Below, in pieces: positions 1,671 to 61,815 of a stretch of DNA of 64,000 bases. Under the pieces are notes generated by a model. That model made no database searches. It was not told the origin of the DNA and saw nothing but the letters and a program-made list of their open reading frames with translations. Source of the stretch: Myrmaecium sp. VS I D KN 1 (taxonomy: Eukaryota > Ascomycota > Dothideomycetes > Valsariales > Valsariaceae); assembly GCA_019775845.1 (NCBI GenBank), contig JADQAV010000010.1:592871-656870 (forward strand), read 5' to 3'. The position numbers were made by a program, and so were the translations under genes. The number at the start of each line of letters is the position of its first letter. Position 1 is the stretch's first letter.

Positions 1671-4600
1671 CTAAGATACTGCCCGCCGCGGTCGTCCGCT
1701 GCCTTCGCCTATCATATAACCACCATAGAGGTCGGGTCGTCCGTCCGGGGGAGGGTTCTCCTTGATGAACTCTTGTCTGATTCTGGTGGCTTCCTTATCC
1801 CAGATGGCTACCTTCTCCTTGAACGCGGCTAGGCCAGCGGCAGTAGCATTTTTCGCATCCTGAGCAGCAACCAAATATGGCCGCTTTACTTCTTCACTAG
1901 CATTGCGCCACATAGCACCCAGTGCAGTTCGCACTTCTGTCCTGGATGCCTTTGCCTCTGGATTCCCGGTCGCTTTCCTTCGTGCATTGTCACATTCTGC
2001 TTTACAATGGTACCAGTGGTCATTGGTGTACAAAAGGAAGGGATTCACCCCTGCCTTCGATGGCTTTACAGGACGCTCGCCAAGCTCTTTAGAAATGGCA
2101 CCTATTATGGAAGCTTCGTAGTCTTCGTTTCGTGATTGCCTCGCATTTTTGGCCCCTGGGCCACCAGCACTGTCCTCCAGTTTGCGCTTGCCATTGAAGG
2201 CAGGTGAAACGACCGCCTCGGTCTTCAGCTTCCGGGGAATCAAAGGAGATGAAGGGATCGGAATCTCTCCTAGGAAAGTGTCTGCTATCTCTGCGGCGGC
2301 TCGAAGCCCAGAAATATAAGCACCGTGTACAGTAGCTGGATGTGTGCCGCAAGTGGCTTCTCCTGCAAAATGCAAAGGTCCGATTGGACGGGCCATTGTG
2401 TCGTATTCGCCTGCTCGGGTTTGTGCACCAACGTAAGAATAGCTGCCGCGTGCAAAGGGATCTCTTTTCCAACGTGTGACGATAGATTCCAGTGGTTGTG
2501 GAACCACTCGAGGCGCAAACATTTTAGAGAGTTTGTCAGTAACCTCCCAGACAAGGTCGTGATCGTCGCTCGTTTCGACGCTATGTGCAGCGTCTCCGGC
2601 CATGAGGGCCACAAGCATTGGCCGACCACTGGTCTTGATGCAATTCCAAAAGAGATAGAAGCGCCCACGACGAGACGTATAGTCACTCTGGTTTAAGCTA
2701 TCAGGAGGCTCGGCCTCATTGAGAAGTCCAAACATGTCACGGTGCTCCTCCCAGAAAGGCTTCTCATAAACAAGGACAACCTAGCAAAGTTAGTATTTCA
2801 TTCGCAGATCTGTCTGAGTGATCCTTACCTTGTTTAACAAGCCGAATCCTAGCTTATCAATAGCATCCTGTTTCCAGCGGGGAAGAGGGGGGTCAAATTG
2901 GATGGAACCCTCCTTCAAGACACCTAACGGAGCTGTAATCACAACTTTGTCTGCGTCAAAAGTCCGCCCTCCCCCACACTTTATCGTGACCGCTTGCTTT
3001 TCTGATATTCCTTTGGAATTGGTGTCGGCATTGTAACAGATACTTTCAACAGGAGTGCTGAAGCGTACGTCTAACTTCGTCGGGCATTGCCACAAGCCCC
3101 TTGGCACTTGCTGATATCCTCCTATTATCTCGGTATGTTCGCCTTCGAATTCATTGCCAATGTCCTGATCCCATCCGCTGAGACTCAGTTGATTGACATT
3201 AGCTGCATTTGCATATTCGAGATTGGCGTGATGCCAGTTAAGAAGACGAAGATCTTGCGCGTTAAGGTCAAGAATATTTTGATACTGTTTGATGGCATCG
3301 TCCATAGTCTCCCCAAGCGTTGGGTGATCTGATTTCTTAGCAACGGAATCAAGATTGAGAGTATGTTGATGCGGCACGCCAGGTTTCGGTTTCCAACCCA
3401 TCGATTCTACAGCCTCTGCAGCAGAAGCATTCGGGTTAAAGCCAGACGTTAACGTATAGGCGCGCCCAGCTAGTTTCTCGATGCCAGAAGTGGACTTCCC
3501 CGGTTTTAGGATGCTCGCTTTGGCTTCGTCTATGTTGACTCCCGAATCTTCGAGTTCCGCAATTGTCAAGCCATTATCGACGCCTGGCTCACGTCCAGCT
3601 GCTATCAATTTTCGAGCGCCCTCAATAGTCCGTATAGGTGGGGATCTATGACGATACACACTAGCTCGCTCGAGTATGTCATTGTAGAGCTTCTCGACTC
3701 TCATATCCTGCTCAAGCGGTACGATTTTCCCGTCGTGATCGTACAGTATGGTATTATCTCGCAGGCCGTGGTATCGGAGTGCCAACTGACCGCGGATGAG
3801 TACGTTAAGGGGGTTGCCGTGCTCGAACCCTGTGACAATTTGCGCTCCCATCTCGGCAGTATTTCGTAGATTTGATGGCAAGGAGCCAGGAACCTGTACC
3901 TGAGTCGGATGCGAATAGACGCGCCCGCCAACCCGAGCCCGCCCTTCCAGTATTACCACTTTCGGGGGGCTTTCACCTTGACTTGACCATCTATCCCCTA
4001 ACTGCGCAAAAATATTCTCAAGTTGCCTCGCGCACCCCAGACCTGACATTCCTGCACCAATCACAACAATCGTACGAGGGCGTTTGCGTGTCACGGTGCA
4101 TGATTCTGGAATTGCTGTGTTGGGCACCTCAACACAGCCGAAGTTGATATACCCATTCCTCAAAAGCCATTCATAGGACACCAGTGCAAGGTTAACAGAC
4201 CGGCTATCCCGCGCACAACCGGCAGCTTCTTCCCTGGTTACGCTGACTAGCGGGCTCCTTATCCACAACCGAAGGATGGCATTGCGAATGTTGAGATATG
4301 TTGTGACCTGAGACGGCGTAATATGGCGACGAAGAAGACGATATTCGCCCGGATGCAACACGTATGGATTCAATCTCGAGAAACAGGCAGCGAGTATGGA
4401 CTGGCGGGCGAATTCTGGCCAGGGAAGGTGACTAGGGATGGAGCTTTTTGGTTTATAACTCCGCTCCTTAACCACGTTTGACGATACTGACGATGATCGC
4501 CCAGTGTGAAACGGTGACCCTGCCAGCAGTGATTTGCCGTCTTCAAGTGGCTTCTCTGGTGGTTCAACTTGAAGCTTCTCTTGACCTGCGTCGGAAATAG

Positions 4601-47655: not shown

Positions 47656-48648
47656 TTACTCCTCGTCGCCGATCTGCCCACGGCGTTAGCATGCACCGAT
47701 AAAGAGAAGAGGGTACCATTTCACTTACCTTAGGAGCGAGGTAGAACCTCAGATAACTGTTGCTGGCCAGGCTGTACTCGACCAGCAGGGGCACCTCGTT
47801 GGAAAGGCAGATCTTGACCTGGTCGGACAGACCGCTGGCCTTGCAGAAGTTCACCAGGTACTTCAGGGAGAAAGTGAGAGCGACCGGTTCCGTCAGATCA
47901 ATGTCCACGTTCAGCGCGGGTTTATCGACGTTGGTGTGGCTCCGCAGCGTAACCGACCCAGAACCAATATCACCTTGGCACGCGAACTTCACGCCCTCCT
48001 TTGTGCACTCGATAGACACTGCGATGGAGTCAGCAAGCGTGAGGCCATCGCACCACTTCAATCACGTACCGGACTCCGAAAGCGCCATCAGATCCCTGCA
48101 GATGCGCGCGAATTCCGCAGAAGGCATGGAGATTGTGGCAGCATATTCGGTTTCCGGGATGCCCAGGTGCTCCTGGTCGATGTCCATGAGCTTGATATCA
48201 TACTCGCTCAGCCTGTCGCTGTCGTTGCTCTCGAAGACCAGGTTGACGACGTCCGGCGCGTCCTCCGCCTTCAGGGTCAGGATGTCCTCGTTTTGCGCGC
48301 AGCGGAGGACCTTGGTCAACGAGGTCAGGTTGATACCGAGCGCGATGTTACGGTCGCACCGGAAGGGGTTGAAGCTTTCCGACTTGAGCATCATGGAGAC
48401 AAGGGCGACATGGGAGTTGTCCATGGCCTGCAGGGCGATCCCGGAGTCATTGCAGTCGAAGTTGCAGTCCTGAACCAAGTCCTTGATAGCATCGACGACC
48501 TGAGGTATGTTAGACTGCGCTCCAATGGCTCGATTGTCATGTCAGGGATGACTGACCTTCTTCAGAAGGCTTGCCTGTTCTAAGCGGGCCTCAAGCACTG
48601 CTGCCTGTTAGAGAGGTTGCAAAGCAGCATGAAGCGGAAGTACTCACT
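47656..48648 (-). CDS. POL30: PCNA, DNA sliding clamp, with a split start codon
   Basis: Coding exons are 48648 (one base), 48597-48557, 48499-48070, 48018-47729 and 47673-47656, giving 259 residues, the normal length. The protein starts [14 protein letters not shown] and ends APKIGDEE. The loop [19 protein letters not shown] and interdomain region [19 protein letters not shown] are conserved. PCNA forms a homotrimer around DNA and tethers polymerases delta and epsilon, FEN1 and ligase. No ATG precedes LEARLEQ in the genomic frame; splicing GCA|GTGAGT to GCAG|TGCTTGAG creates it, A from the leader exon and TG from the next. An in-frame TAA lies upstream in the leader exon and no other ATG intervenes. 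The last exon encodes only IGDEE. Confidence 0.95.
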
Positions 48649-48818
48649 GCTTGCGACGGTATGATTAGGGTATTAGAAAACGGTGAAGAAAGACAACGGG
48701 TGTTATGAGGGCGTGGTGGGCAGAATGTAGACTTGACTGGAGAGCGTGGGTGGTGGTGATGGAAGAAGCAACAAATAAGCCCCGGCCACCGTTGTTAAAG
48801 TGCTTTTTCCACTAACGG

Positions 48819-48838
48819 ACGCGTTACGCGGTACGCGC
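48819..48838. promoter_or_regulatory. MCB box cluster upstream of PCNA
   Basis: ACGCGT at 48819-48824 is followed by ACGCGG (48826) and ACGCGC (48833), about 170-190 bp upstream of the first coding base. MCB boxes of this kind drive POL30 at G1/S in budding yeast; the same factor is likely here. Confidence 0.6.
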
Positions 48839-48933
48839 TCGCGCAGGGGCCATTAACGAGGCGTGCGAGGCCGAGGCCGCGATTGTACGCCTGAATTCCG
48901 AGGCATGCGGATCGGCACGTTTTGCGGCACTAC

Positions 48934-48942
48934 CCTTCGGTT
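48934..48942. repeat. Left copy of putative target-site duplication
   Basis: CCTTCGGTT, identical to 61807-61815 at the other end of the AT-rich block. Depending on where the element starts (TTATCT or TATCT), the duplication is 8 or 9 bp. Confidence 0.55.
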
Positions 48943-49130
48943 TATCTCATAAATCAGACGCTCGGCACGGAGAGTTAGGGAGTATAGTACTATACTCTAA
49001 ATAGACCTAGTAACTTCTAATAACTCTTAAGAACTCTTTAGCTAATAATAAACTACGCTATTTAATATATAGACTATATTACTAACTTCTCTAGCGAAGT
49101 ATTTAAAAGTAAATAATTATAATTTTACCT
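48943..49130 (+). repeat. Left terminal inverted repeat (degenerate)
   Basis: The first 18 or so bases share TTATCT and TAAATCAGAC with the inverted right end. Further in, collinear blocks match the reverse complement of the right end: CCTAGTAACT.CTAATAAC, AGCTAAT.ATA and AAGTATTTAA.AGTAAATA. The inner blocks are AT-rich and related motifs recur inside the block, so the outer 20 bp are the stronger evidence. Confidence 0.5.
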
Positions 49131-49840
49131 ATATTTAAGTATTTTTATTTTTATTATTTATACTCCTATATATCGTATACCGTATATAATACTCCTCTTA
49201 TTATAATTATAGATATAATTAAATATATAGATTTTAGCCTATTATTCTATCTTATTTTTATACTTATATTAATAGTATCTAGATATAATATATAACTTTA
49301 TATCTCCTAATACGTTTTCCGTACTCTTATAAATTCGCCTTTTTTAAATATCTTCTAATTATTTCCATTACCGCGTAATTTATAAACCCTCTTAAATTCT
49401 TCTAAGTTTATAAAAACCCCTAATAAACTACTATTAATATATATAGATTTCTATCGTTTAGAAGGATTAAGTATAGTTTATAAATAGTAGTAGCTAGTAG
49501 ACGGTAGATAATAAAGAGTTAACTATATATAATAGATAGTATAAAATACTAGGAAACTTATAAATTAATTTATATTACTAGTACTATTAGTAAAACTTCT
49601 ATTATCTACTTAGTTATAGGTTATTATCCTAGCTAGTAAACTCCTTTAAACTCCTATATATAATTAAAAGGCCTAATAATAGTAAGTAGCTATCTATACT
49701 TAGTTAGCTATTATTATAACTATTATTATAGTTAATAAAGTCCTATAGACCCCTATAAACTCCTAGACTAATTAATAATATAATCTTAGTATTATTTAAT
49801 TATCTTTAAGCCGCTATTAGTCTAGTAGTTAGCAGCTCCT

Positions 49841-49970
49841 ATAAACTTCTATAGACTCTTATAAACTTCTATAAACTCTTATAAACTTCTATAGACTCTT
49901 ATAAACTTCTATAAACTCTTATAAACTTCTATAGACTCTTATAAACTTCTATAAACTCTTATAAACTTCT
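49841..49970. repeat. 20-bp tandem repeat in a 40-bp alternating order
   Basis: The unit ATAAACTTCTATARACTCTT is repeated six and a half times without indels. G and A alternate strictly at one position, making three copies of a 40-bp higher-order unit. Confidence 0.9.
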
Positions 49971-52900
49971 AAGCTAATATAATCTTAGTATTATTAATTT
50001 ATCTCTAAGTAACTATTAATCCGGTAGTTAATAACTCTTATAAACCTTAAGCGGCTATTAATCTAGTAGTTAATAATTTTTATAAACTTTTATAAACTCC
50101 TAAAGACTCTTATAAACTCCTAAATTAACTAAATAGCTAGATTATTATCTAATAAGCGAATTAAGTAGTATTATAGCTGATAAAAGACGGCTTTTAAGTT
50201 ATCTATATAGTTCTCTACTTAGCCTCTATAGAAGTTACTATAAAGGCTACTATAGAGGCTTTAGAATATATATAACTATATAGCTAGTATCTCTTCTATA
50301 TTACTAGTAGATCTCCCTACTATTATTAATAAGGTTTAGAAAAAGAAGTATATTAATTTATAAGTACTAGTCCTTACTACTTATTTCTAATATATTTAAT
50401 ATAAAGGGGGTTATCTATTAGCTCGTCCCCGTAAGGAATAAGTCTATATATTATAATAGTTAATCTTTTATTACGAGGATACTCTACTTATTACTTATAC
50501 TAGCTTTAGAAAGACCCTTATCTTCTATACCTATATTATTCTTATAAAGCGAATTACTATCTAAATTATCCTACTTATAAAGCTAGGAGAGAAATAATTT
50601 ACTAATATTAAGAAACTTAATAGCACCTGTCTATATCTTATAATAGCTACTACTAAAGTAAAGGAAAAGAGTATATTTATAAAGATAGAGAATAGAGTAT
50701 ATACTTATATACTCCTCTTACTATAATAAGTATTATCTAAGGAGTTTCGTAATATTCTTAGGAAACTAAAGTTCTAAGTAAAGATTAGCTTAGTTATAAT
50801 TAACGAATACTACCTAATCTTATAATAAAGGGATTTTAGGACGAAGTTTACTATATTAAGCGAGTTATAACTTATCCTCTATTAGGATATTATATAGTTT
50901 AGGTATTTTATAATACTTAGTAAAGAAGTAGAAAAGCTTATACTTATTAATAGCGGCTTTTAACTAAATAATACTTAGATATACTAAGTAAAAGTAATTT
51001 ATACCTTTATTAATTAGCCCGATATCTCCGTCTATATATAACTACTCCTACGGAAGAAACTAAAGTCTTTTAAACTATTACTATTTATATTAAAGGAGGC
51101 CTTTAACGGCTTATTATATATAGTAATACCTAGTAATATACTATATATTATTATCTTTATAGATAGTACTAGTAAAGTTAAAGAAATTATATAATTCCTC
51201 TAGGATATATTTATATCTATTATAAGGGAGTGCGAGACTAGCCTTAGATATAACTTAAGTATAACTTAGATATAACTTAGATATAATAAGGAAGCTTAAC
51301 GTCTATATTATAGTTAGTACTTTTACTTTATATATTTCTTAGTATAACTATATATAGTATAATAATAAGTTCTAAAAAAGAGACTTTACTATCCGGATTA
51401 TAATAGTAACTATAACCCTTAGTATAGAGATTAATATAATATAGGTAGGATATATTATTATCTATTAACTTCTAGTAATAAGTAATCTAGGCGATACCTA
51501 GTAATAACTTAGTTAGGGGGAGTAGCTTAAAAATACTTCTAGTAAGAGCTATATCCTCCTACTATATTATATATTTAACTTAAAAGATATCGAAAGATTA
51601 AATAGTTAACTATTACTTTTACTACTATAACGGATAACTATATAAAGGAGCTATTATAAGCTATTAGTTAATTATACTTAATATAGCTAGCTATAAAATA
51701 TAATAATCCTAGAGGACTTTAGCGACTATAGTAGTAATAGTAACTACTCTTTTATATTAGTATTAAGTAATATACTATAGAGATATATTATAAGAAGTAG
51801 TATAAAGAAGCTAAGGTACTAGACTAAGTAAGAAAATATTATATATAGTAATATACTTAGTGTATAGAAAGATATTATTAATAGCCTCTATTATTATAAG
51901 GCCTTCCTCCCTTATTTAAAAGAGGATAAGCTACTTACCAATACTAAAGTTACTTAGGTATTACCTAAGTAGTATTATAGTTATTATAACTCCTTCCTTC
52001 TTACTATATTTATCTAGCCTCTACTTATATAAAAGCCTACTTAGGTACTAAGAAGTAAGAGTTAAGTAAATATAACTCTTTATTTATTAGATAAGTAAGT
52101 AACTAACTAGGCTAAAGTAGTCTATTATAAAGTTAATTATTACTTTCCTATACCGGCTAGTACTTATATAAGTATATATTATTACTAGTAATTATCTATA
52201 TTATTTATTACTATAAGTAATAGTATTAAGTAGAGGTCTATAGCTTTAATAATAGATTCTATCTATAAAAAAGTATTATTACTTTAAGATTAAATAGGAT
52301 TAGCGCAGGATAGTAGTATTCTATTTATATAATTATAATTTATAGTAGTATAAGTAGATACTTAATTTAAGGATACTAAGAGAAGGGTAGTAGAATAGAA
52401 GTATCTAGTAATAATTACTTAGGATCTAGAAATATAAGATTAACTTATACTATTTAATAACTTAGCTAAGAGATATCTTATAGAAATATAATAGAGAGAT
52501 AATATACTTACTATTTAGGTTATAAGAAAGGAAGCTCTAAAGTACTATACTAAAATATAGCTACTATTAGTAATACTAAGTAAGTATATTATATAGCTAT
52601 TATTTATAATACTAGGTAAGCCCGTTCTACTTACCTAAATACCCTATATAATTTAGAAGAACCCTTATATTAGAGAAGATATACTTTATTCTTTACCCCG
52701 GCTAAGCTACTTCCCTATCTTAGTAGTAGTTCTAAACTTATAGGCTATCCCTAATATATAGTAGGATATAGTTATTAATATATAAGTATCGCCGGATTTA
52801 TAGTAGGATATTATCGCTAATATATAGATATATAAGGAGCGTTTAGAAATTAGGGATAGTAATATAAAAGCTGTAATAAAAGTAATTACTAAATAAATAC

Positions 52901-53522
52901 TTAATTAGAGGATAAAGTATTTATATACTACTTTAAGAAATTAAGTATATAGTTAGTAAGATAATTAAATACTTATTTAATAACTAGTAGTAGAGAAGAA
53001 TAGTAATATAAAGAAATTAATATTCTTACTAGTTATAAAAAGTAGTTAAATATATATACTAATAGTAAAGGGAAGAGAGAACTTTAACTATATATAAGTT
53101 AGTCTATATATATAAAATATACCTTAACTCCTAGGAACTCCTATAAACTCCTATATATATTATAATATTATACTCTTCAGCTACCGTAATATTCGGGTAT
53201 AGTATATATAGGTAGCGGAAACTTATATAAATACTTAATAACTTATATATTAATTAGGGCGTAGCTTAAGGTAGGAATTTATAATATTATCTAAGATTCT
53301 ATACTATTACTTAAAAACTCTTATTATTACCTAAGAACTCCTATACTAATTATATCGCGAGGATTTATCCTATTATATTTTATATATTAGTTAGTATATA
53401 TTAATATAAACGTTCTTAACCGCGACTAACTAATCTTTCTTATAATATACTTTCTTTATCTTCTTCTTTTTTATTATCTTCTCCTTCCTACCCTCCCTAC
53501 TCTAACTAATAGTAATAATAGC

Positions 53523-53610
<88 letters not shown>
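53523..53610. repeat. (AGT)n microsatellite, about 29 units
   Basis: An uninterrupted AGT/ACT trinucleotide run of about 88 bp inside the AT-rich block. Neither strand contains CpA, so it is immune to RIP, and its purity suggests it is younger than the surrounding mutations or still slipping. Confidence 0.95.
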
Positions 53611-55249
53611 AGGCTCTTAGTACCTTCTCCCTAATAATAATAACGATAATAATAATATTCCGTAAGTAAATACTTAAAATTAAAAAAAAATAAAACTATA
53701 ATTTATTAACCTATATAACTAGCTTCGCGTTAACTCCTCCTTCTTATTTCTAGCCCCTCTCTCCTTCTATATTACTACTACTATTATTACTACTATTCTC
53801 CTTACTATCGCCCCCTAGGTACTAGTCCCGGCTCTTATAGCTACTTCTTTAACTTTAGTAGCTACTAACCTTACTATCGCTATTATAATATAGTAGCTTA
53901 CTATATTTAATATAATAAATTAATTATATTACTTTTAGATAGATTTTTTATCTAAAGCTATAGAGCTCTATCTCCCCTAAGTAACTAGGAAGTAATAAAG
54001 CCTTAATAATAAGTTCCTAGTAGAGTAGAAGGCTTTTAGGATATAGGATTAGTTCTATATAAAAAGAATTATAAAGACCTTTCTAAGAGAGAAGCTACTT
54101 AGTAATATAATATATTTAAAGTATTAGTCTAATAAGTTCGAGTATTAAACCTATTTAAAATTAGGTATATTATTAATTTTAAAAGCTAAGTTAGTATATA
54201 CTTAGTACCGGGCCCGTATAAAAGCCTACTTAATATTTATTTATAAATAATAAGTTTAGAAGTTAGATTACTCCCCGCTTCTATATCTTCTCCTCTTAAA
54301 AGAGGGAGGAGGTCCTCCGGGACCTAGTACTCCCGGTATTACTATTTAATATAAAATATATTATAGGCTATATATTATAGTTATTATATTATAGTCGGAT
54401 CTTTAGTAGTATTATTCTTTTAATATAGTATTATCTATTTAGCCCGGTCTACTCGGACTCCGGCGGGGTAGTATAATTTCTATACTCTAAATTATTTTTA
54501 TAGTTTTAATAATATAGTCTATATAAGTTAGGATAAATAAAAGTAACATATAACCGGGATAAGATAATAGTATATTTACTCTATAGTTATTATTATAGTA
54601 GTATAAGGATAGTTAAGAGGAGAGGTTACTTAAATAATATATAAATAAAATAATCTAAGGGACTAAGTAGGTCCCTACTACGTTATAAGTATACTAGTAA
54701 TATATAATAGATATATTATTAGCCTAGGAATTTACGGGAGATATAGATATTATTAGTTAATATATAGTTTAGGAGTTTACTAGAGTTCCTAGGTTTATTA
54801 AAGTTTAGTTATAATTAGTCTAGGAGTTTACTAAAGTTTAATTATAGTCTTTTATCTCTCTTACCCTCCTCCCTCTTCTTTATCCCCGAGGGGCGGTATT
54901 ATTTATATAAATAAATATATCTTAAAGAAAGGACTTAGAATTAGTAGTATATTTATTAAAAAGTATTCGGTAATAATTATTAGTAAATAGGATTATTAGT
55001 TAATTTTTCTATCTTTAAGAGCTTATTTAAAGTATTTATTAGTAGCTTAGTAGATAACCTACTCTAGAATCCTATATATAAATAGCGATTTCTTAATATC
55101 TTAAATACGTAGGCTTATATTAATTAAGTAGCGTGGCGCTTTAATAGCTCTAAATTCTTTACTATATATTATATTAATAGAGGTAGATAGAGCGACGCTT
55201 TTATTTATTCTATAAATTAATCTACTTAGAATTATAGTTATAAGTAAGA

Positions 55250-55430
55250 CGATAGTCCCCTTAAGGGGAAGACTAAGATAATAGTTCTCTTAAGAAGAAG
55301 AGTAAAATAATAGTCTCCTTAAGGGGAAGAGTAAGATAATAGTTCCTTTAAGAGGAAGAGTAAGATAATAATCCCCTTAAGGGGAAGAGTAAGATAATAG
55401 TTCCTTTAAAAAGAGGAGTAAGATAATAAA
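55250..55430. repeat. 29-bp tandem repeat with a palindromic core
   Basis: GATAATAG recurs at 55277, 55306, 55335, 55364, 55393 and 55422, an exact 29-bp period over about six units. Each unit holds a variant of the palindrome CCCCTTAAGGGG followed by AAGAGTAA. Single diverged copies of the same core appear near 55450, 55690, 55720 and 58290. Confidence 0.9.
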
Positions 55431-57582
55431 TAATAGCTATTCTCTTAAAAGAAGGACGATAATTATACTTAGGAGTTAGCTAGAGTTATATAGTTTATAT
55501 ATAGATAGTATTTAATTAGATTAGGAGTTTATAAGAGTTAGATAGAATAAGAAGGTAGATAATAGTCGTCTTTTTAATAACTTTTAGGTTAGCCGGAGTT
55601 AAATAGTTTATATATAGATAGTATCTTATTAGTTTAAGAGGATATAAGAGTTAAATAGAGGGTCTTCTAAGGGGATAGAAACGACGGTCCTCTTAAGCGG
55701 AAGAGTAGAATAACGGCCCTCTTTAGGGGATAAGGATATTAGTTCCCTTATAGTAATAAGTAAAATAGTTTTAATTAGTTTAGGAATTTACCGATATTAA
55801 ATATCTTATTATAGCTTATATAGGTAGCTTCTAGTTAATCTAAGAGATTTTAAGAATTAGGTAGATAAGAGAGCTAGTAGGATAATTATCTTCTTAAAGA
55901 AATAAGTAAGGTAATTTTAATTAGGTTAGGAATTCGCCGGTATTAAATAGTCTACTTATTATATAGACTGTTAGTCCTATATAACTATATCTAATTAGTT
56001 TAGGAGTTTATAAGAGTTTAATACTTTAACTATAATCTTTATAGCTAGTATCTAATTAGCTAGGAAGTTACTAGGAGCTTACTTTAACTTTAATAATCTA
56101 AACTCTAGCCCCTTACCTAAGAGAGGATACTAACTTAAATAATAATAGCTTCTAACTTAACCTAATTAATAATAGCTGGATTAATAATAGCTTACAACTT
56201 AACTTAATTAATAATAGCTTATAACTTAATAATAAATATCTAAAGGTATACTTACTTACAGAGTAAACCTACAGACTTATATTATTAAGTTATTAGCTAT
56301 TATTAGTCGGCTAAACTTAATTAATAATAGCTTATAACCTAATAATAAGGGTTAATATTTCTATATTAGCTTTTTAGAAATCTACTTCTATCTAGCTACT
56401 CCTAAGACCTCCTATATATTCCTTTTATCTTATTTACTCCTTAAGGTAGGTAGACCCTCTAGGCTCCTATCTAGTATTAAGGTTACTAACTAGTTTATAG
56501 CTACTATAAATAGTAGCTACTATAAATACTAATAAGCTAAGTAATAGTAACTTATTAAGGAAGCCTTAGTCTAACCGGGATAAGGTATATAATCCTCTAT
56601 TAATAATTCTTTATTAAGATATATTAAGCTAATAGTCGACTAACTTCTAACTAACTTATTTATCTTATTCTACTTATAAAACGTAGTAGCCTCTTAATTA
56701 ACTAGAGGACTACTCTTATACTTACTAGCAGATAGTTTAGAAACTACTTATATCCCCGGGGAGGTATTAATATATATAATTATAGCTTGAAGGATATATA
56801 TCTTATATTATAAAAAGGATTTAAGACTCGAAGCCTAGGAGTTAATATAATAAAGGCGATATTATCTAGAAAAAAAATATAACTTTATAAAAGTATATCT
56901 TATCTTAAGGAAATAACTATAAATATATATATATAAGGATTAGATATTAGTAGTTATAATAATACCCCCTTCTTCTACTTATTCTTTTTAGTCTATTAGA
57001 TATACTTCTTAGTATCTTTATAATTATATCTCTATTAGTAGTTTTATAGTTAGTATACTTCTCCGCCTCTCTAGAAGGCTCCTTTATTAGTAACTTTATA
57101 GTTAGTATACTTATCCGCCTCTCTAGAAAACCCCTCTACTAAACTAAGAAGGCCTTATACTACTCTAAACTAAGGGCGCGGAGTACGGTTAAGTTAAAAG
57201 TAGTAGTCTACTAGTTATAAAAAACTTTAATAAAACGGGTATTAATCTTAGCTTTTAAATAGAATCTAAGTAATCTAAAGAAGTTATAAAGCGGGTTATC
57301 CTACGTATTAAGCGAAATAAAAATTAGATACTATAGCGCCTTTAAGTTATATTCCCCCGGAATATCTAAATTAGATATATTATTTAAATTTTCTTATATT
57401 TTAGTTAATCTAAACGACGCTGCTAAAAACGTAATAGGTTAAGAATTACTATATTACTACTTTAGTAGTAGTATTTAGTTTATAATAGACCCGGCCTTCT
57501 GCTTTTTTAATATAGTAAAAGGTATCTTCTTAAATACTAAGGTAGGTTATAATATAGGGCTCTTATTATTAAAGTTAATAAT

Positions 57583-57784
57583 AACTACTATATCTAAGCT
57601 ATCTTATTTATACTAAGAAGTATAATCTCTATAGATCTCTTTATTACTAGATATAGTCTTTATTATTACTAAGTATAGTTAATAAAGACTGTATTTAGTA
57701 ATAAAGAAAACTATACCTAGCGATAAAGAGATTTATAGAGATTATACTCCTTAATATAAATAAGATAATTTAGATATAGTAGTT
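57583..57784. repeat. About 200-bp near-perfect palindrome
   Basis: The sequence from AACTACTATATCTAAG reads back on the opposite strand from 57784. Over the outer 74 bp the arms differ at about eight positions, all transitions as RIP would leave. The loop is about 20 bp near 57683. It could be a small inverted-repeat (MITE-like) insertion. Confidence 0.85.
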
Positions 57785-60700
57785 AAACTACCGCTGTATT
57801 AGGCTAGCTTATATTCTAATAAAGCGGCGTATTTAGGTTAAGATTAATAGTAACTATTCTTTACTAATAGCTCTTATTAGTATCTACTTTTTTATAGTAT
57901 AATATATACGTAATTCCGCGTAACGACTATCTTTAGCTAAAGATTTAATATATATATATTTTAGCGTAATTACTATCTTTATTATTAGCTTAATATATAT
58001 ATTATATACGTCGGGCTATTTCAGCCCGAGATAACGCTTTAGCTTATAAGTAATATCTACTCGAAGTACTTTTATAGCCCGCCCTATATATTATAGTTTA
58101 ATAAAGCTAATAATAATATAGTATAGACTTCTTTTTAGGCTTTCCTCCGCCCCCTAAGTATTAGGTAGATATAAAGAAAGAGAGGAGGAGGAAGAGATTA
58201 TATCTAAATATAAAGGGTCCTTAGTATAATTACTAAGTATAACTCTAAATATCTAAAGATATAAGGGTAAGAAAAGGACGATAGTCCTCTTAAAGGAGGA
58301 ACTAAAGTTAATATAAGTATATTTAATTAGTCTAGGAGTTTACTAGAGTTAACTAGAGTTAAATAATTTATTTATAGTCTATATATATAACTTCTAGTTA
58401 GTTTATAAGCTAAGGTAGTCTAATAGATAATAGTCCTCCTTATAGGAAGAATAGCGACGGTCCCTTAGAGAGGGGGGATATAATTACTTCTAATTAATTT
58501 AGGAGTTTATTAGAGTTAAATAGTCTACCTATAATCTAGCTAGAGAGCTTCTAACTAGTCTAAAAGTTTAAAGTTAGAGGGGGGGGCTATAATCCGTACA
58601 GCTATATTTAATTAGTTTAGGAGTTTATATAAGTTTAATTATTTACCTATAATCTATATATATAGTATTTAATTAGCTTAGGAGTTACTAGGCGTTTATT
58701 CTAACTATAAATACTAACTCTTCGCTTATTTATAAGTAACTATTACCCCTCTATCCTTATAGAGTATATCTTATAATAAATAAACTTAGAGTCTTATTTA
58801 AAGCAGGCCTTTAAACTAGTAATATAACTAATAATAGCTTATACTTAAAGATAATTAAGCGGACGTTTATATATTTAGCTATTAAGTACTCTGTACTAAT
58901 ATTATTTTTAATAGCTCCTAGTTTTATAAGAAGATAAATACTTATCTAGTTAGTTTAGTAGACTTAATTAATAATAACTTATACCTTTAAGTACTTTATA
59001 CTAATACTATTTTCTATAGCTCCCGGTCTTATAAGAAGATTAATACTTACTTAGATAGTTTCTTCTAATAAATTAATTACCTCTCTACTAGGGTTTAAGC
59101 TAGAAGTAATTACCGAGGAGTTTATAAGAGTTAAAAGGAGTTAAGTATTATAGATAATAGTACCGTTCTCTTAAACTAAGGTAGAAACAGAGGGAGATAA
59201 TCCTAAGTAAGGCTAATCTTCTAATTTTAGAAATTAAAGGTAAGAGGGAAAAGAAATAAGTAATAAGAAGTTAATCTAAGGAAGGTCTAAGGATATAAGG
59301 GTAAGAATAAAGCCGAGCGAATCCTTAAGAAGAACTTAAGGAGGAAGAACTAGAATTATTTAAACTAGAAATCTAAACTTATAAAAGTAAAGAAGTTTAT
59401 ATATACTTAAAAAGAGAGTAGTATAGAGTAAGGCCTTATTAAAGTACTACTTAATTTTACGAGTCTTAAAGTAGGGTTTTTAATAAAGTATTAAATAAGT
59501 ACGGGTTTAAGGTAACGCAGCAGCGATATATTCTAATAAAGGCGGGTTTATTAAGTAAAATATTAAGCGATAGTAAGGTAGTAGTAATATAGTAAGGAGT
59601 TTAAGTAAAGAGTATAGAGTAATAATAGGTCCTGCGGGACTATTTTACAGTAGTAGTAATATTTAGAAATACTATAAAGTAAGGTAGTAGTATTAATAGT
59701 AGTATTAGCGAGATTATAAATATACTGCGTAGTAGTAATATTACTAAACAGCGGTAATATTACTAAGTAGTAGTAAGAGTTAGATAGTAGGCTTATATAT
59801 TAAGTAAGAGCTAAGATATATACTAAGTAAGTATAAGAGATATATACTAAGTAAGAGCCCGTATACTAAGTAAGTACTTAGATTATTCTTTTAGTAATAG
59901 TATAAGCGTTAGGGTCGGCGAAGGTAGCTTAGAAAGCGGAGTAGAAATTAATCTAGATTTTAAAATAAATAGAACTGTTTTCCGCAGAAATATAAAGTTA
60001 AAACTAAGTATAAGCGGAATCTTAGAGGTATAAGCTAGAGTAGTAAATTTTAGCTTAATTAAAGGAGAAAGTAGGGTCGGAGGTAAACTTTAACTAAAGC
60101 TACGTAATAAAGTTCTAGAATTATACCCTATTACTTTTAAAGAGCTGAGGATCGGTAATTTTTTAAAATATAAGAGTAGGAAGCGGTTTCTAACGGGAGC
60201 GGAACGGAAATAGAAGTTAAAGTAATTTAAGAAAAGAGTACTAAGAACTAGGAATTATAAGTAAGAGTTTTAATTATACTATAAATACCTAGCTTATAGT
60301 AAGATTAGTTACTAAATATTAGGTTTAAAAGAATTACGGTACAGCTAAACTAATTACTTAAATATAGTAAGAAGACTAAATATATCTAAAAAGATAATAA
60401 GTAATTACAGATCTAAATTACCTCTAAGATAGGAAGTATATAATTTACTATATACTTCCTTTATAAGTGTAAAAGAGTAATAAGTAGACGGTTCTTTTAT
60501 ATATACTTTAGTATTATAAGGTATACTCTAGTCGCCGGGAAATCTAGTTATTAGAAGAAAATAACTAATTAATTATTTAATATAATAAATATATATATAT
60601 TACTAAAAATTTAATTCTTATCTTTCTAACTAGCTTAGTTACAGACTAGTAGTAATAATATCTCTTAAGGTAATTAGTATAATATTAAGATAGTAGGGTT

Positions 60701-61629
60701 CGAGATTTAGGTATAGATACCGGGTTAATACCCTACTAATATATACCTCTATTAAAGTTATATTAATTAAACTAAGGGATTAAGTCTTTAAAAGGATTTT
60801 ATAAAGTAAATATAAATAAGAGAATTATATAAGATAATTTAACTTCTTTCTTATATAAGAGAAGTATAGTATAAAGATAATTATATATAGCCGTTTCTCT
60901 AATATAGTTAAAGATAAGCCTTAGTATATAGCTTAGTATACCTACTAGTTCCTAAAGAAGCTTATTAAGATCTTATAAAGTATAGGTATAATACTTCTTA
61001 TTATCTTAAAAATAGCTATAAAGTTTATTCTTTTTATATTAATATAATAGTTAAACTTATTAAAAAAGAGCTATTAGATTAGATTATTAAGCTCGTCTAT
61101 AAGAACCTTAATAAAGGTTAGAGTATTAACTTAAAGATAATAAAGATAGTAATTACTACTTAGAATTATCTCTAGAATATATTACCGCTATATAAGTATA
61201 TAGTATAAATAATACTAAATTATAATATCTTATTATTATATAATAGCGCGCGCGCTAACTCCTACCTAAGCCTTTATAAACTATTTAAATAACTACTAAA
61301 CTTATTATATTATATTAATAATTATTTAGAGCTTCTTAGCGGTTATAAAGTATCTACTCTAAATATTTTATATATATTCTAATCGGGTATATTAGGTATT
61401 AGGGTATTAGTAAATAGTAATAAATAATTAAATAATAGAGATAAGAATCTAGGCGATAGAATAAATAACGCAGATACTATAATAAGCTTTATATTTAATA
61501 GATTATATAAAGCGAAAGAAGCGCTTTTAAATAAGCTTAATTTAAAGTAGATAAATAATAAGAATAAGAGAAAAGTATAGCGTTAAATAACGTAGTAGTA
61601 AATTATATAAAGACGATATTAAAATAGTA

Positions 61630-61806
61630 TATAAATTATTACTATTTACTCTTAAATACTTTATTAAGAATTAGTTTATAGTTACTATAATTAGCTTAGA
61701 AGTTTATAGAGGTTATTAGGAGTTACTAGGAGTTTAAGATAGTCCTAATTAGGTATAGCTCGAGTAGCGCTGATTCCCGCTGGAGAGTCTGATTTACCTA
61801 AGATAA
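61630..61806 (-). repeat. Right terminal inverted repeat (degenerate)
   Basis: Reverse complement begins TTATCTTAGGTAAATCAGAC and matches the left end as described there. The outer 60 bp are not RIP-mutated, as on the left. Confidence 0.5.
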
Positions 61807-61815
61807 CCTTCGGTT
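61807..61815. repeat. Right copy of putative target-site duplication
   Basis: CCTTCGGTT, identical to 48934-48942. Confidence 0.55.

Follow-up and report, generated by a model that had tools for sequence, protein, structure and literature searches.

A large RIP-degraded element with Mutator-type ends in a Myrmaecium genome, probably mobilised in trans and most likely carrying a RecQ-family helicase gene

What is the 12.9-kb AT-rich block in this part of the genome of Myrmaecium sp. VS I D KN 1, how did it get there and what did it carry? The window, that is, the whole stretch of 64,000 nucleotides analysed here (contig JADQAV010000010.1 of assembly GCA_019775845.1), is cited below as C2:592871-656870, and all genome searches covered the 66 contigs (25.66 Mb) of this one strain, each denoted by C and a number. 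A sequence-only reading had proposed one large insertion of a DNA transposon, degraded by repeat-induced point mutation (RIP) and probably Mutator-like; its observation is confirmed and its interpretation supported by what follows. We consider it fairly probable that the block is a large Mutator-like element (MULE) that was unable to move itself and was mobilised in trans, with a RecQ-family helicase gene inside.

Within the AT-rich block the GC content per kb is 22–29%, against 49–65% outside, and the ratio (CpA+TpG)/(ApC+GpT) is 0.04 in the element versus 1.2 in the flanks. The outer features of the insertion are these:

48942–61806, plus strand: RIP-mutated element, 12,865 bp, its ends placed by alignment with the ends of relatives
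48934–48941, no strand assigned: left target-site duplication CCTTCGGT, 8 bp, an exact repeat at the border
61807–61814, no strand assigned: right target-site duplication CCTTCGGT, 8 bp, an exact repeat at the border
48942–49138, plus strand: left imperfect terminal inverted repeat (TIR), its outer 18 bp, TTATCTCATAAATCAGAC, common to a family of short elements
61619–61806, minus strand: right imperfect TIR, its outer end reading TTATCTTAGGTAAATCAGAC when inverted

The termini are TTATCT on the left and AGATAA on the right or, in their longer form, TTATCTCA...TAAGATAA. A flanking duplication of 8–9 bp had been claimed. The 9-bp word CCTTCGGTT is indeed found at 48934–48942 and at 61807–61815 (with a third copy on the minus strand at 4267–4275), but its ninth base is part of the element's left end, so the duplication itself is 8 bp. 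Taken alone, a 9-bp direct repeat of this kind is weak evidence, 0.54 occurrences being expected by chance across the whole window, and one might suppose that both the repeat and the inverted ends are accidents of AT-rich DNA. The ends argue otherwise. Their inverted alignment, earlier put at roughly 180 bp, covers 197 and 188 bp; aligning the first 200 bp with the last 200 bp after inversion gave a local score of 83, whereas 500 dinucleotide shuffles peaked at 39 and 480 pairs taken from within the element at 53. At 300 bp, the length originally proposed for this comparison, the score was 96 (control maxima 47 in shuffles and 54 in 473 internal pairs). Long TIRs, by which MULEs are recognised, are therefore present in imperfect form (about 190 bp). 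Other loci hold the same ends with duplications of their own, and these ten insertions in effect refute the chance explanation, to which we give next to no credence.

In the genome the left 109 bp of the element have three matches and the right 167 bp have four, the last of which falls subterminally at the left end of the copy on C11. This second long copy (C11:441329-449760, 8,432 bp) is likewise RIPped and shares five collinear blocks with the window copy at 82–87% identity; about 7.3 kb are common to the two, most of it with no assigned content. The third copy, the kind of less mutated relative that the sequence-only reading had suggested looking for, is a 275-bp derivative (C13:377163-377437) that retains both ends, has lost most of the interior and carries no RIP, so that it displays the pre-RIP sequence of the ends. 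RIP degradation can thus be seen directly. Relative to it, the window copy has 22 substitutions on the left and 15 on the right, C>T or G>A accounting for 21 and 13 of them, and its CpA/TpG sites are converted at 11 of 15 places on the left and at 9 of 11 on the right; the C11 copy has 23 and 17 substitutions, 22 and 14 of them C>T or G>A. In the inverted alignment of their own ends the C11 copy scored 67 (maxima of 40 in shuffles and of 66 in 475 internal pairs) and the 275-bp copy 34 (maximum of 27 in shuffles).

A genome-wide search with the terminal pattern gave nine exact matches, compared with none for the reversed control pattern, and three of them were new left ends (C13:55325, C18:16596 and C57:16628). 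These lead to a second family, of short elements of 253–500 bp (five copies measured), in which the left 18 bp of the C13:55325 and C57 copies are identical to those of the window element. Members of this family, which are non-autonomous MULEs flanked by 8- or 9-bp duplications, are found at C13:55325, C57:16628, C26:46717, C16:31232, C18:16596 and C8:512858. The C18 copy appears RIPped although it is shorter than 500 bp. A search with one short element produced 12 matches at seven elements, among them a 3,032-bp element at C10:2611288-2614319 with the ends TTATCTCATGATGATCAGAC...GAGATAA, the duplication GCTTGGGT and, inside, a MULE transposase relic (PF10551, E 3.9e-9). Duplications lie directly at the ends in all ten insertions, 8 bp long in six and 9 bp in four, exact in eight and with one mismatch in two; at the C8 insertion the altered left end was positioned using the repeat itself. 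Duplications of MULEs are given as 8–11 bp (PMC6446971), a range that includes the 8 bp of the window element, and the link to a transposase-encoding element runs through the C10 element and the short family. Because of the 8- and 9-bp duplications, together with a C10 element that ends in the same way and contains a PF10551 relic, the termini of the window element, judged by sequence, are Mutator termini. Both the single large insertion and its Mutator-like nature, as first suggested, are borne out by these relatives.

The same duplications bear on whether the element belongs instead to AcademH (or KolobokH), superfamilies that include elements with RecQ-type helicases. AcademH elements are described as carrying a helicase and having 9- or 10-bp duplications (PMC10045372), and KolobokH elements as encoding a RecQ helicase and being known only from fungi (PMC9587614). 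In the element's own family, which has loci on C2, C11 and C13, two of the three duplications are 9 bp long, one of them mismatched, and the helicase relic described below (motif II in both long copies, motifs V–VI in one) is what AcademH would predict. On the strength of a helicase and of the 9 bp duplicated at the first two relatives, AcademH served as the working reading; it was dropped after more 8-bp insertions and the C10 MULE relic were found. The duplication is 8 bp at six of the ten insertions, including the window's, rather than 9 or 10 bp; the same kind of ends occurs on an element with a MULE transposase relic; and the TTAA duplication of Kolobok is not seen here. PF20231 (DUF6589), our guess at an Academ transposase model, has no match in this genome, nor any in the control genomes, so that its silence here says nothing either way. 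Window element and AcademH/KolobokH are alike as DNA transposons with a helicase and differ in the MULE-type ends and 8- or 9-bp duplications of the former, and we regard an AcademH or KolobokH identity as unlikely.

If the ends are those of a MULE, which transposase moved them? PF10551 matches five RIPped loci in the genome:

C13:519352, C23:42689, C34:216988, C10:2612416 and C66:526721 (loci L060–L064): MULE transposase relics, PF10551

These relics are RIPped as strongly as the element (GC 0.22–0.28, CpA+TpG 0.000–0.004), and in an all-against-all tblastn comparison every one of them was found by at least two others. Several of the five are just 25–45% alike, in one small genome. In the window and C11 copies, PF10551 has no match; tblastn with the five relics against the large elements reached a best E of only 0.002, and comparison at the DNA level gave short matches only. 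When the C11 copy and window positions 55295–59145 were scanned with Pfam in six frames, stops being read as Q or W, no transposase emerged, only three sub-cut-off matches to unrelated families (best E 0.023), whereas the same treatment recovers the MULE in C10; the blocks that the window copy shares with C11 were scanned in three segments rather than in all six frames. Autonomous MULEs encode their own DDE transposase, which the large copies do not detectably do, and non-autonomous MULEs lack it by definition. Since no MULE transposase is detectable here while equally RIPped relics are, we read the element as non-autonomous, and the large copies were probably moved in trans. An autonomous element, whose own strongly diverged MULE transposase is hidden by RIP, would fit the lack of assigned content in most of the common 7.3 kb and a weak match considered below; given that the five relics are so readily linked to one another, and that the scans succeeded on C10, we think it improbable.

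Pfam and PDB searches of the element found no helicase, only unrelated matches below the cut-off, and for this reason a RIP-aware comparison was devised, in which an observed codon is scored over the possible ancestral codons that preceded CpA/TpG to TpA changes. A profile was built from 82 RecQs (80 bacterial loci and two host genes), and its best plus-strand match fell at the same homologous place in both long copies, in the DEAH...DFRP region:

50733–50867, plus strand: RecQ-family helicase motif II region (DEAH...DFRP), RIP-damaged, found with the RIP-aware profile
51400–51474, plus strand: helicase motifs V–VI, approximate place, significant for the C11 copy alone

The whole profile scored 65.7 at the first of these places (maximum of 15 permutations, 51.8) and 57.5 in the C11 copy (permuted maximum 47.5). 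Segment by segment, with 12 column permutations each, motif II reached 69.7 in the window (permuted maximum 39.0) and 61.5 in C11 (43.9), and motifs V–VI 57.2 in the C11 copy (39.7); motif IV scored 37.1 in the window (36.2) and was not significant in C11. In 24 scans of other loci (the five MULE relics, six long terminal repeat (LTR) retrotransposon loci with flanks and window positions 55295–60829, both strands) motif II did not exceed 38.1 nor motifs V–VI 37.6, while the intact host RecQs, themselves in the profile, scored 225–390. With the two host RecQ proteins as single references, the shuffled maxima were beaten in one of two tests on the window copy and one of two on C11 (55.8 vs 39.1 and 46.0 vs 42.8); a DEAD-box control never beat them. 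Stop-codon density by frame gave no clear reading frames. Motif II with DEAH followed by DFRP, as expected of a RecQ, is recognised in both copies, and on these scores a RecQ-family helicase with no recognisable ATP-binding motif is the likeliest identity of the gene inside the element. Because motif II has the same place in two copies that were inserted at separate sites with separate duplications, the helicase would have been aboard during movement. The earlier suggestion of cargo finds support in this relic.

Several results weigh against the reading of a helicase-bearing MULE moved in trans. As Pfam finds none, the helicase call hangs on a scoring written in this analysis, of which a first, non-local version failed to discriminate. 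Two of the four single-reference RecQ tests did not exceed the shuffled maximum, and joint scoring of both copies gave 43.1 for each RecQ reference (shuffled maxima 39.9 and 40.7), weaker than the window copy alone. In the window copy motifs V–VI scored 37.1, which is not significant (permuted maximum 42.4). Motif III was counted in neither copy: the match in C11, scoring 42.9 (39.8), is out of order, about 3.7 kb downstream, and the one in the window, scoring 39.7 (35.2), is on the minus strand. Walker A (motif I) was found in neither copy, the best plus-strand scores of 32.9 and 32.7 being at the permuted level. As to the transposase, relic L062 has a weak tblastn match at a homologous place on the minus strand of both copies (E 0.002 in the window, 0.044 in C11), which may mark a transposase remnant, too weak to claim. 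Finally, the C10 element and the large elements have only their ends in common, and it is by inference that the transposase of the former moved the latter; the MULE assignment depends on these common termini, a MULE transposase being undetected in both large copies.

Was the helicase a partner in transposition or a passenger? In the second case a host or subtelomeric RecQ-type gene would have been captured by a non-autonomous MULE, in the manner of Pack-MULEs, and would have had no role in movement. MULEs are known to capture genes (PMC6431247), ascomycetes have repeated telomere-linked RecQ genes that may be RIPped (PMC3017866, PMC4522978), and the relic has no recognisable Walker A. However, the element matches neither host RecQ locus in searches of its own genome, and so no recent capture is seen; the motif II region has an identical position in both long copies; and both are, as far as known, internal on their contigs (C11:441329-449760 on a contig of 813,486 bp, and C2:641812 onwards). 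We regard the passenger as a serious contender that falls short of even chances. Still more tentative is the idea that a RecQ-like helicase was taken up by a fungal Mutator lineage as an aid to transposition and helps 8–12 kb MULEs to move in trans, in what would be the third DDE superfamily to do so after Academ and Kolobok.

For a MULE mobilised in trans, the anatomy suggests the following course. A MULE transposase from elsewhere, of the kind relicted in C10, would have bound the TTATCTCA...TCAGAC ends, excised the element and joined it at a staggered break, leaving 8- or 9-bp duplications. The element would already have carried its RecQ-family helicase gene, whose likeliest role, by analogy with other transposon-encoded helicases, may be accessory to transposition or to the subsequent repair. 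RIP has mutated both long copies beyond coding and spared the 275-bp derivative, as observed. An LTR retrotransposon, present today as a fragment, would at some time have entered the window copy.

The remaining interior features of the window copy are as follows:

49159–50121, plus strand: left subterminal array of TAAACTCCT-like motifs, from a motif search
55295–59145, plus strand: stretch missing from the C11 copy, single-copy save for a 416-bp, 69% match on C57
59146–60307, plus strand: nested LTR-retrotransposon relic, consisting of an LTR (59146–59881) and a piece of the internal region (59871–60307)
60305–60825, plus strand: piece 86% like C3:6420-6941, missing from the C11 copy
60830–61806, plus strand: right end common with the C11 copy, 87%

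The first 1.2 kb hold eighteen TAAACTCCT-like motifs, all in one orientation; the right arm is richer in AGGAGTTTA-like motifs. Because the latter are found in right-arm orientation in 55295–59145, this stretch possibly belongs to the element. The strand bias of AGGAGTTTA within these window-only 3.85 kb is 12 to 1, but it is only moderate evidence, since comparable biases (7 to 1 and 5 to 1), at lower density, turn up in two of the five MULE relics used as controls, and the stretch may be either native sequence lost from C11 or additional cargo. The LTR of the nested relic matches at least 17 other places outside the window, among them three pairs spaced about 5.8 kb (C8:1291023-1297416, C64:425031-431530 and C13:537972-544180); the window relic is a truncated member of this family and bears out the earlier suggestion of nested insertions. 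Together with the C3-like piece it makes up about 1.7 kb of foreign sequence, and the window element would measure about 11.2 kb without it. An inverted repeat at 57582–57785 has 98-nt arms, 87% complementary and 8 nt apart, and a genome search with its surroundings found no copy elsewhere. There is also an (AGT)n microsatellite at 53520–53610, and the C11 copy likewise has such a repeat run.

On the left, the element sits upstream of a minus-strand PCNA gene (PF00705, E 5e-50), 294 bp away from the inferred start codon (interval 48648–48942), the codon being placed via an inferred splice site. PCNA is an essential gene. GC content over 48001–49000, which is largely flank, remains 0.55. On the other side the right duplication is about 0.44 kb from the end of an open reading frame of the SNF2 family.

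How does the window element compare with known systems? As described in PMC3627910, the fungal MuDR-like elements ROr-4, PBl-3 and MCi-4 carry Fanzor1 and no MuDR transposase, and are on that account a direct precedent for its architecture: ends resembling those of transposase-bearing elements, an accessory gene, and no transposase found. They differ in the accessory gene (Fanzor1 rather than a RecQ-like helicase), in their 9-bp duplications (8 or 9 bp here) and in their hosts, Rhizopus, Phycomyces and Mucor; the long copies here are RIP-destroyed. Plant Pack-MULEs (PMC6431247) are likewise non-autonomous MULEs with a non-transposase gene, moved in trans, with a limit of 7 kb in one survey, against 8.4 and 12.9 kb here; unlike in their case, no source gene for the helicase was found in searches of the own genome. 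Arthropod MULEs are reported to reach 10.0 kb (PMC13359780), and the unusual size claimed for the element is supported. The telomere-associated RecQ repeats of ascomycetes (PMC3017866, PMC4522978) resemble it as repeated, low-GC RecQ-type sequence, RIPped in one of the two reports, but they are subtelomeric, whereas the helicase here is enclosed in a TIR element flanked by target duplications.

Academ and Kolobok transposons are known to include RecQ-type helicases, for which the accounts cited suspect, but do not demonstrate, a role in transposition (PMC10045372, PMC9587614, PMC3627910). The word helicase is absent from the main text of the MULE survey PMC6446971, and none of the literature matches listed reports a MULE with a RecQ helicase; it is the association of the two that is new, as far as those matches go. 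Helicases of this type thus turn up repeatedly among DNA transposons that are not related. Should unmutated relatives confirm that a Mutator element has one as well, this would show repeated recruitment and make the helicase's role testable in a superfamily whose transposition is well studied. Moreover, the case shows how RIP-destroyed fungal elements can be assigned to a superfamily through short unmutated derivatives and common termini where protein searches fail.

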